In this document: positions 32,097 through 35,712 of the stretch, one piece after another | Numbering within the stretch: position 1 is the first letter of the stretch | How the letters are laid out: each line of letters begins with the position of its first letter | From: Caldilineales bacterium | GTDB lineage: Bacteria; Chloroflexota; Anaerolineae; J102 | DNA length: 56,533 nt | Assembly (NCBI GenBank): GCA_019695115.1 | Contig: JAIBAP010000037.1 | Span: 1 to 56,533, forward strand | Reading direction: 5' to 3' | Program-made: the position numbers and the translations under genes | Notes under the pieces: model-generated | Database searches by the model: none | Seen by the model: the letters and a program-made list of their open reading frames with translations, nothing else | Told to the model about the DNA's origin: nothing

Positions 32097-32345
32097 ATGA
32101 ACACCGCCATTTCCATCCCCGATCCCATTTTCGAGACCGCCGAGCGTCTCGCCCAGACCCTGCGCATCTCACGCAATGAACTCTATACGCGTGCGCTTTC
32201 CGCCTACATCCGCTACCGCAACCGATACCCCCGCAATCGCAAGGAATTCGTCACCACAAAAACACTGCTGAAGGCCATCGCACCGGCGGCGATGATGGGA
32301 TTGAGCAGCCCCAGGGCGGCAAAGGGGATGCCGATGATATTGTAG
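32097..32345 (+). pseudogene. Truncated ribbon-helix-helix antitoxin gene running into copA
   Basis: The first 45 or so residues (AISIPDPIFETAERLAQTLRISRNELYTRALSAYI) match RHH antitoxins of the MazE/CopG type. From about 32213 the frame runs through the antisense of the copA 3' end, and residues there look like shadow sequence. The normal C-terminal toxin-binding part and a partner toxin are missing. Probably a remnant cut by the arrival of the copper operon. Confidence 0.5.
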
Positions 32346-34732
32346 ATGAAGGCCCAGAACAGGTTCTGGCGGATGGTGCGCATCGTCCCCCGGCTGAGCG
32401 CCAGCCCCCGGCTCACCCCCGCCAGGTCGCCGCTCATCAGTGTGATGTCGGCCGTCTCCATCGCCACATCCGTGCCGGTGCCCAGGGCGATGCCGATGTC
32501 GGCCTGAGCCAGCGCCGGAGCGTCGTTGATACCATCGCCGACCATGGCGACGAGGCGGTGGGGATTGGAGATTGGAGATTGGTGATTGGAGGTTGGGGAG
32601 TCCGGCGCGTTTCGATTTCGCAATCCGAAATCAGACATCTGCAATTGCAGTTCCTTCACCTGGGTGGCTTTGTCTTGGGGCAGGACTTCGGCGTAGATGT
32701 CGTCGATGCCGGCCTGGTGGGCGATGGCAGCGGCGGTGCGGCGGTTGTCGCCCGTCATCATCACCACCTGCAGCCCTTGTGTGCGCATTTCCGCCACAGC
32801 TGCCGCCGAACCGGGCTTGATCGTATCGGCCACGGCCAGCAGACCGGCGGTTTCGCCATCGACCGTCACCATCATCGCCGTCTTGCCCTCGCTTTCCAGA
32901 CGGGCGAGGGCATCGGCCAGGGTGGAGGAGGCCATTCCGGCCAGCCGCGTGCTCCCCACCACCACCAGCCGCCCCTCCACCTGCGCCCGCACCCCGGCCC
33001 CGGTCACGGCCTCGAAGCCGGAGGGAGCCGCCAGGTCGAGCGCCTGCGCCCGGGCCGCAGCGACGATAGCCTGGCCCAGGGGATGCTCGGAGCCGCGCTC
33101 GGCCCCGGCAGCCAGACGTAGCAAATAGGATGCGGGCGAGAAGCCGTTGGCCGCGGGCGGCAGCCAATCGGGGGCGGCGATCACATCGGTGAGCGCCGGC
33201 TTGCCCTCGGTCAGGGTGCCGGTCTTGTCCAGCACCACCACCTTCACCGCCTCGGCCCGCTCCAGCGCCTCGCTGTTCTTGAACAGAATGCCGTTCTGCG
33301 CCCCTTTGCCCGTGCCGACCATGATCGCCGTCGGGGTGGCCAGGCCCAGCGCGCAGGGGCAGGCGATGACCAGCACGGCCACGGCGTTGATCAGGCTGGT
33401 AGTGAAGCCGGCGTCGGCCAGGAAATACCAGCCCAGGAAAGTGAGGGCCGCGATGCCCAACACCGCCGGAACAAAGATAGCCGAGACGCGGTCGGCCAGC
33501 CGCTGGATCGGGGCCTTCGAGCCTTGCGCCTCCTCCACCAGCCGGATGATCTGGGCCAGGGCGGTTTCGCGGCCCACGCGCGTGGCCTGCACCCGCAACA
33601 TTCCCTGCTTGTTGAGGGTGGCGCCGATCACCTGATCGCCCGCCTGCTTGTCCACGGGCGCCGCCTCGCCGGTCAGCATCGACTCATCGATGGCGCTCTC
33701 GCCGCTGAGGACGATGCCATCTACGGGCAGTTTCTCGCCCGGCCGCACCACCACGATGTCGCCCACCCGCACCTGAGCGACAGGGATCTCGCTCTCGCTG
33801 CCGTCGCGCTCGACGCGGGCCGTCTTCGGGCGCAAGCCCATCAGCGACTTGATGGCGGCGGAGGTGGCGCCTTTGGCGCGCGCTTCCAGATACTTGCCCA
33901 GGCGGATGAGCGTGATGATCAAGGCCGAGGTCTCGAAGTAGACGTGATCGCCCAGGTCGGCGCCGGCCAGCCCGCCCACGATGACGGCCACGCTGTAGAA
34001 GTAGGCCGCCGATGAGCCGAGGGCGATGAGCACATCCATGTTGGCGGCGCCGTTCTTCAGCGCCTTGTAGCCATTGACATAGTAATCACGGCCGACATAG
34101 AACTGAACCGGCGTCGCCAGCGCCCACATCACCCAGTTGACCCAACCGGCGTGCGCCCAATGACCCAACAAACCGAGGTCGCGGGCCATCGAAAACAGAA
34201 ACAGCGGGATAGTGAAGGCCAGGCCGGTGAGCAACAAGCGTCGCTGGCGGTCGAGTTCGGCCTGCCGCGCCTGTCGCTCGGCATCCTCGACCTCGGCTTC
34301 GTCCTCCCCCGCCGCCTCGATCACCTGATAGCCCAGGTCGGCCACCAACTCCTTCATCGCCCCGACATCGACCATGGCCGGGTTGTAGACCACCGACGCC
34401 TTCTCGCTGGCCAGGTTGACGTTGGCCTGCTCGACCCCCGGCATCCGCTTGAGATTGCGCTCGATGGTGGTCGAGCAGTTGGCGCAGGTCATGCCGGCAA
34501 TGGGCAGTTCGACCCGCGCCGTGGCCACGCCGTAGCCCAACTCCCCGATCAGGTCATGGATGGCGGCTGGCTGCACCACGGCAGGGTCATACACCACTCG
34601 CGCCCGCTCGGTGGCCAGATTGACCGATGCCTCCTCCACGCCGGCCATGCGCTTCAGATTGCGCTCGATGGTGGTCGAGCAGTTGGCGCAGGTCATGCCG
34701 GTGATGGGGAGGACAAGCTGTTGGCTGGTCAT
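32213..34732 (-). CDS. copA: Copper-exporting P1B-type ATPase with two HMA domains
   Basis: 839 residues. Two N-terminal HMA domains (GMTCANC at residues 12-18 and 80-86), the transmembrane CPC motif [12 protein letters not shown], phosphorylation site DKTGTLTEG, and hinge [16 protein letters not shown]. It pumps Cu(I) out of the cytosol. Between KELQ and [10 protein letters not shown] about 28 extra residues ([20 protein letters not shown] and onwards) are encoded by the same heptamers seen between genes; the frame is intact. It is the last gene of csoR-copZ-glutaredoxin-copA. ATG at 34732 begins the first HMA domain. Confidence 0.95.
32555..32645. repeat. Heptamer repeat array inserted in frame in copA
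   Basis: Plus-strand units GGGATTG, GAGATTG, GAGATTG, GTGATTG, GAGGTTG at 32561-32595, then CGCAATCCGAAATC at about 32617-32631. The first set matches the intergenic array at 35241-35317 and the second the array at 21353-21380. It adds about 28 residues to CopA just before the conserved GDGIND hinge. Confidence 0.85.
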
Positions 34733-34766: not shown

Positions 34767-35015
34767 TCAACCGGTCTCTGGCAAGCCCAGGAGCTGCGAG
34801 AGGCGCTTGCGGTTGAAGCCCACGACCGGTTCTTCACCCACGAGCGTGACCGGAGTCGAGAAGACCTGCAAGCGTTCGAGCACGGCCAACGCCTCCTCGT
34901 CTTCGATCACATTGCGTTCCTCGAAGGCGACGCCCATTTGAGAAAGCCACGCTTTCTCGCTGTTGCAGAACAGTCAGCCGGGTTGGGTGAAAAGGACAAC
35001 GTGCGGGTCTTCCAT
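34767..35015 (-). CDS. Glutaredoxin-like protein with in-frame UGA (candidate selenoprotein)
   Basis: Reading through one TGA gives 82 residues of glutaredoxin type: [16 protein letters not shown] at codon 14 (34974-34976), LFC, then [31 protein letters not shown] holds the cis-Pro and [14 protein letters not shown] the last helix. The UGA stands exactly where the first active-site Cys belongs, giving UxxC. A perfect 8-bp hairpin with loop GUG begins 15 bases after it. CopZ ends 10 bases upstream and copA starts 34 bases downstream. A nonsense mutation or base-call error cannot be excluded from this sequence alone; no sel genes lie in the window. Confidence 0.8.
34940..34958 (-). promoter_or_regulatory. 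Candidate bacterial SECIS element
   Basis: On the minus strand GAGAAAGC pairs perfectly with GCTTTCTC around the loop GTG. The loop begins 23 bases after the UGA, within the 16-37 base window for bacterial SECIS hairpins, and has the required G at the loop start. Confidence 0.7.
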
Positions 35016-35025
35016 GCCGGATTCC

Positions 35026-35229
35026 CTAATTGGCGGGCGCGTAACCGGCCTCTTGCAGGGCCGCGCGCGCTTTGATCAGCGCCTCTTCACTGGCGTAATC
35101 GACCATGACGGCGCGGGTTTCGATGCTGCCCTGGATGTATTCGACGCCTTCGACGAATTTGAGCTCACGCTCGATGGTCTTCAGACAGTGGCCGCAGGAG
35201 ATGGTGGGGATGGTGAGGGTCTTTTTCAT
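35026..35229 (-). CDS. copZ: Copper chaperone CopZ (HMA domain)
   Basis: 67 residues, one HMA fold with the metal-binding loop SCGHC (residues 11-15; Cys12, Cys15) and the C-terminal strand GYAPAN. It carries Cu(I) in the cytosol to CopA. The usual GMTC is replaced by TISC. It lies between csoR and the UGA glutaredoxin in the same operon; a long heptamer array precedes it. Confidence 0.92.
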   Translation of the reverse strand: MKKTLTIPTISCGHCLKTIERELKFVEGVEYIQGSIETRAVMVDYASEEALIKARAALQEAGYAPAN

Positions 35230-35240
35230 GGTAGGGGTTG

Positions 35241-35317
35241 GAGAACGGAGATTGGAGGTTGGGGATTGGGGATTGGGGATTGGAGATTGGGGATTAGGGA
35301 TTAGAGATTGGGGATTG
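35241..35317. repeat. GGGATTG/GAGATTG heptamer array between csoR and copZ
   Basis: Eleven consecutive 7-base units, GAGAACG, GAGATTG, GAGGTTG, three GGGATTG, GAGATTG, two GGGATTA, GAGATTG and GGGATTG. It is the longest array in the window and the closest relative of the one inside copA. Confidence 0.85.
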
Positions 35318-35347
35318 CTTCGGCCTGCGGCCTCGCAATGACAGGGG

Positions 35348-35632
35348 TTAGCGGGTGAGCTTGCCGGCGGCGTCGAAGACTTCGATGATCTCGCCGATCA
35401 CGCGCTGGCGGTCGTCGGCGTCTTCCGAGCGGATGGCGGTGGTGACACAGGTCTGCAAGTGGTTGGAGAGAACCAGGCTGTTGACGCGCTCGAGCGCACT
35501 CTGTACGGCTTTGATCTGTTTCATCACGTCGATGCAGTAGCCGTCATCCTCGACCATGCGTTCGATCCCGCGCACATGACCTTCGACGCTACGCAGACGG
35601 TTGATGACATCTTTCTTGACTTCGGGCTGCAT
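35348..35632 (-). CDS. csoR: Copper-sensing repressor CsoR
   Basis: 94 residues, all-helical CsoR/RcnR family. The Cu(I) ligand set Cys-His-Cys is present in DDGYCIDVMKQ and in SNHLQTCV. CsoR binds a GC-rich palindrome and leaves the DNA when copper binds. ATG at 35632 begins the family N-terminus MQPEVKKDVINRLRSVEGHVRGI. A matching G/C palindrome overlaps its predicted start of transcription, which points to autoregulation of the cop operon. Confidence 0.94.
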   Translation of the reverse strand: MQPEVKKDVINRLRSVEGHVRGIERMVEDDGYCIDVMKQIKAVQSALERVNSLVLSNHLQTCVTTAIRSEDADDRQRVIGEIIEVFDAAGKLTR

Positions 35633-35651: not shown

Positions 35652-35712
35652 TCACCCCTCCCCCTGGGGGAGGGGGGTAGCCTCATCCTAGCACTTCGAC
35701 GCCGGATGATAA
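35652..35712 (-). promoter_or_regulatory. cop operon promoter with CsoR-type operator
   Basis: On the minus strand TTATCA (35707-35712), 16 bases, TAGGAT (35685-35690). The predicted start near 35678 falls in the palindrome CCCCTCCCCC-T-GGGGGAGGGG (35655-35675, 10-bp arms), which resembles the known CsoR operators TACCC...GGGTA with poly-G/C tracts. Confidence 0.5.

Follow-up and report, generated by a model that had tools for sequence, protein, structure and literature searches.

The locus is a copper-export operon on the reverse strand of the window (the whole 56,533-nt stretch of DNA that was analyzed), and it holds a short glutaredoxin-like reading frame between copZ and copA (Table 1). 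This frame runs on the (−) strand from an ATG at 35015-35013 to a TGA at 34769-34767 and has one internal TGA only, at codon 14, which is followed by L-F-C. Translation table 11 interrupts it at codon 14, and it is absent from the list of open reading frames of at least 60 amino acids, which makes it plausible that gene finders overlook the gene or cut it in two, as the initial annotation expected. With the TGA read as a residue, the Pfam Glutaredoxin model matched residues 6–62 (E = 1.7e-10, 41.3 bits against a cut-off of 22.9), and because this match spans the UGA, membership of the family holds on both sides of it. Positions U14, C17, and P55 were invariant in the alignment of homologues (alignment A3), giving the (C/U)xxC motif and the conserved proline after it that characterize glutaredoxins. 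Coordinates and Pfam thus agree with the initial annotation, which had described an 82-codon glutaredoxin frame with a single TGA at the first active-site position and family-like sequence on either side. The best NCBIfam match by score was the YruB-family model TIGR02196 (55.6 bits, cut-off 88.55), and since the protein fell below this cut-off and those of the UXX-star family NF041212 (45.4 bits against 66) and the NrdH redoxin TIGR02194 (42.3 bits against 85.75), it is filed under none of the three. An AlphaFold prediction made without an alignment had a mean pLDDT of 45 and was unusable.

Table 1. Features of the copper operon and of the glutaredoxin gene within it
Feature	Position	Strand	Basis
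Sec-glutaredoxin gene (predicted)	34767..35015	−	82 codons plus TGA stop; PF00462, 41.3 bits; aligned with ten UGA homologues
Internal UGA at codon 14 (first UxxC position), predicted selenocysteine	34974..34976	−	UGA in ten homologues, TGC/TGT in Cys homologues
Resolving cysteine codon, C of UxxC	34965..34967	−	Invariant in alignment A3
SECIS-type hairpin with 8-bp stem and GUG loop (34950-34948)	34940..34958	−	bSECIS rules, covariation, UGA-plus-hairpin model
copZ, HMA-domain copper chaperone	35026..35229	−	Pfam HMA, 38.6 bits; copper-binding/CopZ models score highest in NCBIfam, below their cut-offs
copA, copper-translocating P-type ATPase, two HMA domains	32213..34732	−	TIGR01511, 585.8 bits against 397; start ATG 34732 by inspection
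csoR-type metal-sensing repressor	35348..35632	−	PF02583, 101 bits; best NCBIfam match is the RicR copper repressor, below cut-off; start by inspection
Perfect C-rich palindrome CCCCTCCCCCAGGGGGAGGGG, candidate CsoR operator	35655..35675	−	21 nt, upstream of csoR

The assembly containing the window (G000; 6.0 Mb in 135 contigs, estimated 100% complete) was searched for the genes of selenocysteine insertion. The check for selA, selB, selC, and selD that had been suggested for this genome found all 4: a tRNA-Sec (anticodon TCA; 73.1 bits against a gathering threshold of 47), SelA (453 bits), SelB with the C-terminal part included (335 bits in sum), and SelD (353 bits). The SelD frame of this genome (L018:1501-2436) itself contains an in-frame TGA within the motif CAGUASK, and the host SelD is probably a selenoprotein too; other Sec-containing SelD proteins likewise carry an in-frame TGA in their genes. 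Sec decoding in G000 is thus indicated by more than the glutaredoxin gene. The glutaredoxin gene also terminates at a UGA (codon 83), where the SECIS model found no match, which argues that UGA is not globally reassigned.

When 400 genomes of the phylum were searched with the protein, nine others proved to have a UGA homologue; the family to which the window belongs supplied a tenth. In all ten, the UGA falls in the same alignment column and is followed by xxC, and the Cys homologues have TGC or TGT at the position of codon 14; the alignment that had been proposed as a check therefore revealed unbroken frames in which this codon specifies Sec or Cys. The wider search raised the number of UGA homologues across the phylum to tens, and a profile search of one class gave a match in 22 of 29 genomes, most of them with an in-frame TGA. 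SelA was present in all ten UGA genomes; because it also occurs in most of the Cys-form genomes tested, this co-occurrence is a matter of consistency rather than proof. These data bear on the explanation that the gene is an ordinary or decaying Cys glutaredoxin whose UGA is a nonsense mutation or a miscalled base, an explanation to which the presence of the gene in this operon in one genome only and the 135 contigs of the assembly would lend some weight. That ten other genomes share this UGA leaves very little likelihood of an assembly error and, together with the frame intact on both sides, a covarying hairpin (see below), and the full Sec machinery, largely refutes this explanation, which we regard as extremely improbable.

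The nearest homologues of the window protein (45–51% identity) belong to other classes, and in the tree the gene is placed amid UGA homologues of other classes with weak support (69/78). This is consistent with horizontal transfer of the gene, as judged from its sequence, and with support of this order the tree does not single out a donor. A back-translated peptide scan for close relatives returned one distant match in genome_contigs and one in viral_contigs, and the matches of a plasmid search all had less than 60% identity and were mostly annotated as glutaredoxin or NrdH.

Downstream of the codon-14 UGA, the RNA can form the hairpin GAGAAAGC-GUG-GCUUUCUC, which begins 15 nt past the UGA. 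According to a published description, bacterial SECIS (bSECIS) elements have a loop of 3–9 nt, a stem of 4–16 bp, a G in loop positions 1–2, a spacing of 16–37 nt, and a minimum free energy of −7.5 kcal/mol or lower (PMC13188914). All of these constraints are satisfied by the window hairpin (3-nt loop GUG, 8 bp, loop 23 nt past the UGA, −10.3 kcal/mol), so that both the agreement with the bacterial SECIS rule claimed by the initial annotation and every detail it gave of stem, loop, and distances proved right. When the same peptide was recoded synonymously, 3.2% of the recodings contained a bSECIS-like hairpin of 8 bp or more, and 0.03% had a stem of 8 bp in precisely this position relative to the UGA. 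A hairpin in one sequence alone is weak to modest evidence, and it becomes strong here because it is conserved across relatives. In the ten homologues, ungapped, the hairpin lies equally far from the UGA; nine have GUG, GUA, or GUU as the loop, and one has a variant register. Standard pairs occupied 94.3% of the hairpin cells, compared with 41–64% when the partner was slid by 1–3 columns. Changes on both sides of a pair were found in 5 of the 8 pairs (15 cells; mean 3.5 after shuffling, 0/500), and the covariation score of the hairpin was 0.539 versus 0.207.

At this offset, a contiguous stem of 6 bp or longer was present in 25 of 32 UGA loci against 2 of 36 Cys loci (Fisher p 3e-10, indicative only, because the rows are related and independence is overstated), and of the 21 UGA loci retrieved once the pattern had been noticed, 15 had such a stem. 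Constraint on the peptide is by itself an insufficient explanation for the hairpin, since the Cys homologues encode a similar peptide. In one UGA sequence (L056) the stem contains a mismatch. A model combining UGA and hairpin, for which the window site was itself a training sequence, returned this site as the single significant one in a scan of the window (60.8 bits, E 6e-13), the next scoring 14.3 bits. Separately, 3 glutaredoxins of the HERU(T/S)AC type (L122, L132, and L133) have an in-frame UGA and no hairpin at the +15 offset, and may use a SECIS of a different shape.

Two further readings of the UGA are addressed by these results. It could be the true stop of a 13-codon leader, with the hairpin as a regulatory element coupling translation to copA, and attenuation or coupling by a hairpin just past a stop near copA is conceivable in principle. 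We consider this barely credible, since UGA, frame, and hairpin are kept in homologues that have no copA nearby and the frame past the UGA is a clean glutaredoxin. Alternatively, a route other than Sec insertion could decode the UGA as Cys or Trp, given that misacylation or read-through takes place at UGA in some bacteria. The whole Sec pathway is encoded in the genome, the hairpin fits the bSECIS model, and the Cys homologues simply use TGC or TGT, all of which make this decoding very improbable. Altogether, the reading of the gene as a Sec-dependent thiol protein, put forward in the initial annotation, is well supported by UGA conservation, the covarying hairpin, and the complete sel set. 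In this mechanism, SelB carrying Sec-tRNA-Sec and GTP would bind the hairpin just 3′ of the UGA and selenocysteine would be put in at codon 14, yielding a U-L-F-C active site; from the sequence we judge such insertion to be very likely.

The surrounding genes form a CsoR-type copper operon, with the order csoR-copZ-copA and the palindrome, an operator by similarity only, ahead of csoR. Similar C-rich palindromes with small changes precede csoR in most of the same-family relatives examined, and the element is likely to be the CsoR operator, for which it is a candidate on sequence grounds. A short repetitive tract, 'aatccccaatctcc', lies between csoR and copZ (35231-35320), and simple repeats like it are found in the copZ-copA gaps of some relatives. 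The glutaredoxin gene starts 10 nt past copZ, ends 34 nt ahead of copA, and has the same direction as both, and these short gaps make it very likely that it is carried on the copper-controlled message; we accordingly think it probable, from gene arrangement, that the gene is co-transcribed with the operon and induced by copper. The order csoR-copZ-copA is conserved in same-family genomes, and none of those with a readable junction, both congeners included, has a glutaredoxin between copZ and copA. These junctions point to an insertion in the lineage of the window or to repeated loss, of which insertion is the simpler, and the copper operons of the congeners show that the system can do without the gene.

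To ask how far the family is associated with metal genes, we compared the neighborhoods of 90 loci. Matches to metal genes were not enriched among UGA homologues (5 of 49, against 12 of 41 other loci, the Cys homologues, one of which, L188, was misparsed), so that metal specificity is not a trait of the whole family and an association of all UGA glutaredoxins with metal clusters is unsupported. The sub-group closest to the window gene, delimited post hoc, had a metal link in 4 of 5 members, the window included (Cu, As, As, Hg). One of them (L062) is flanked by Acr3, ArsR, and ArsM, another (L065, 2200-6633) is a UGA glutaredoxin among ArsR, ArsM, a cysteine desulfurase (IscS), a NifU/IscU-like protein, TusA, and a DsrE-like protein, and a third (L068) has MerA/MerB as neighbors. 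No further members of this sub-group were found in other genomes of the classes to which G030 and G035 belong.

These neighborhoods bear on the function of the protein. The selenoprotein may be real and serve general thiol redox or peroxide repair, its place in the copper operon being an accident of insertion. The non-metal neighborhoods of other UGA homologues, the lack of enrichment over Cys controls, and the congeners that operate csoR-copZ-copA without a glutaredoxin all favor this explanation; it is countered by the tight, co-directional spacing that makes a shared message very likely and by the arsenic and mercury genes adjoining the nearest sub-group, and we hold it to be possible but rather improbable. 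We consider it likely, instead, that a Sec-glutaredoxin is made with the CsoR-controlled copper-export operon and acts there, in all likelihood as a thiol reductant. The gene would have been inserted between copZ and copA, and its product would probably be formed together with the copper chaperone and pump upon Cu(I) accumulation. It would most likely maintain the cysteines of the Cu-binding CxxC sites in CopZ and CopA in reduced form, or alternatively repair oxidized thiols, and selenium could provide speed and resistance to over-oxidation. That CopZ and CopA are themselves the substrates is suggested by analogy and held tentatively, as quite possible. Since metal genes are not enriched family-wide, the copper role that we infer draws on operon membership, the conserved C-rich palindrome, and the analogy to the copZ-prxgrx-gorB and Grx1-Atox1 systems described below. 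A more direct role, in which the UxxC selenolate-thiolate pair binds Cu(I) or swaps it with CopZ or CopA and the sub-group has been repeatedly recruited to copper, arsenic, and mercury clusters, seems unlikely; if true, it would place a selenium-based step in copper export.

Glutaredoxins with Sec in a UxxC motif have been known since early selenoproteome surveys and are an established selenoprotein family. Those of Geobacter, Alkaliphilus, Clostridium oremlandii, Moorella, and the Sargasso Sea set share with the window protein the PF00462 domain, the UxxC motif, and a SECIS just past the UGA, while the location of the gene inside csoR-copZ-copA is unusual and is a setting that the available portions of these reports do not describe (PMC13188914, PMC1794560, and PMC1088965). 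The UXX-star and YruB families (NF041212, NF041211, and TIGR02196) are likewise small and glutaredoxin-like, often with Sec at the first active-site position, and metal-ligand roles are suggested for UXX-star in a review (PMC13188914); the window protein differs in falling below the curated cut-offs of all three models and in retaining the resolving Cys. In Bordetella pertussis, the gene after copZ in the copper-induced operon copZ-prxgrx-gorB likewise encodes a glutaredoxin-type thiol enzyme, which guards against oxidative damage (PMC7794356). That operon encodes a peroxiredoxin-glutaredoxin fusion and a glutathione reductase under CueR/OxyR control (PMC7794356), whereas the window has a stand-alone Sec glutaredoxin with copA and a CsoR-type repressor, which makes this an analogy and not a shared system. 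Human Grx1 speeds the redox equilibration of the CopZ-like chaperone Atox1, is tied to the copper pumps ATP7A and ATP7B, and exemplifies a glutaredoxin acting on CxxC sites in both a copper chaperone and a copper pump (PMC5039574); being eukaryotic, Cys-based, and glutathione-dependent, it is a functional analogy only.

What is new is the copper-operon location and the size of the UGA glutaredoxin group in the phylum. The first extends Sec-glutaredoxins to a copper-export operon and suggests that selenium use and copper defense are linked in a way that can be tested, and the second provides a large, covariation-supported set of UGA glutaredoxins within one bacterial phylum. The standard bacterial code breaks such frames at the UGA, and the protein from the window falls short of the cut-offs of current NCBIfam selenoprotein models.

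A separate observation concerns the length of these proteins. The UGA glutaredoxins L109, L112, L126–L128, and L154–L171 (TxTUPYC and similar motifs) extend about 160 amino acids beyond the UGA, and their C-terminal extension is apparently PDZ-like, as judged by eye. This PDZ-like Sec fusion form is apparently widespread in the phylum.
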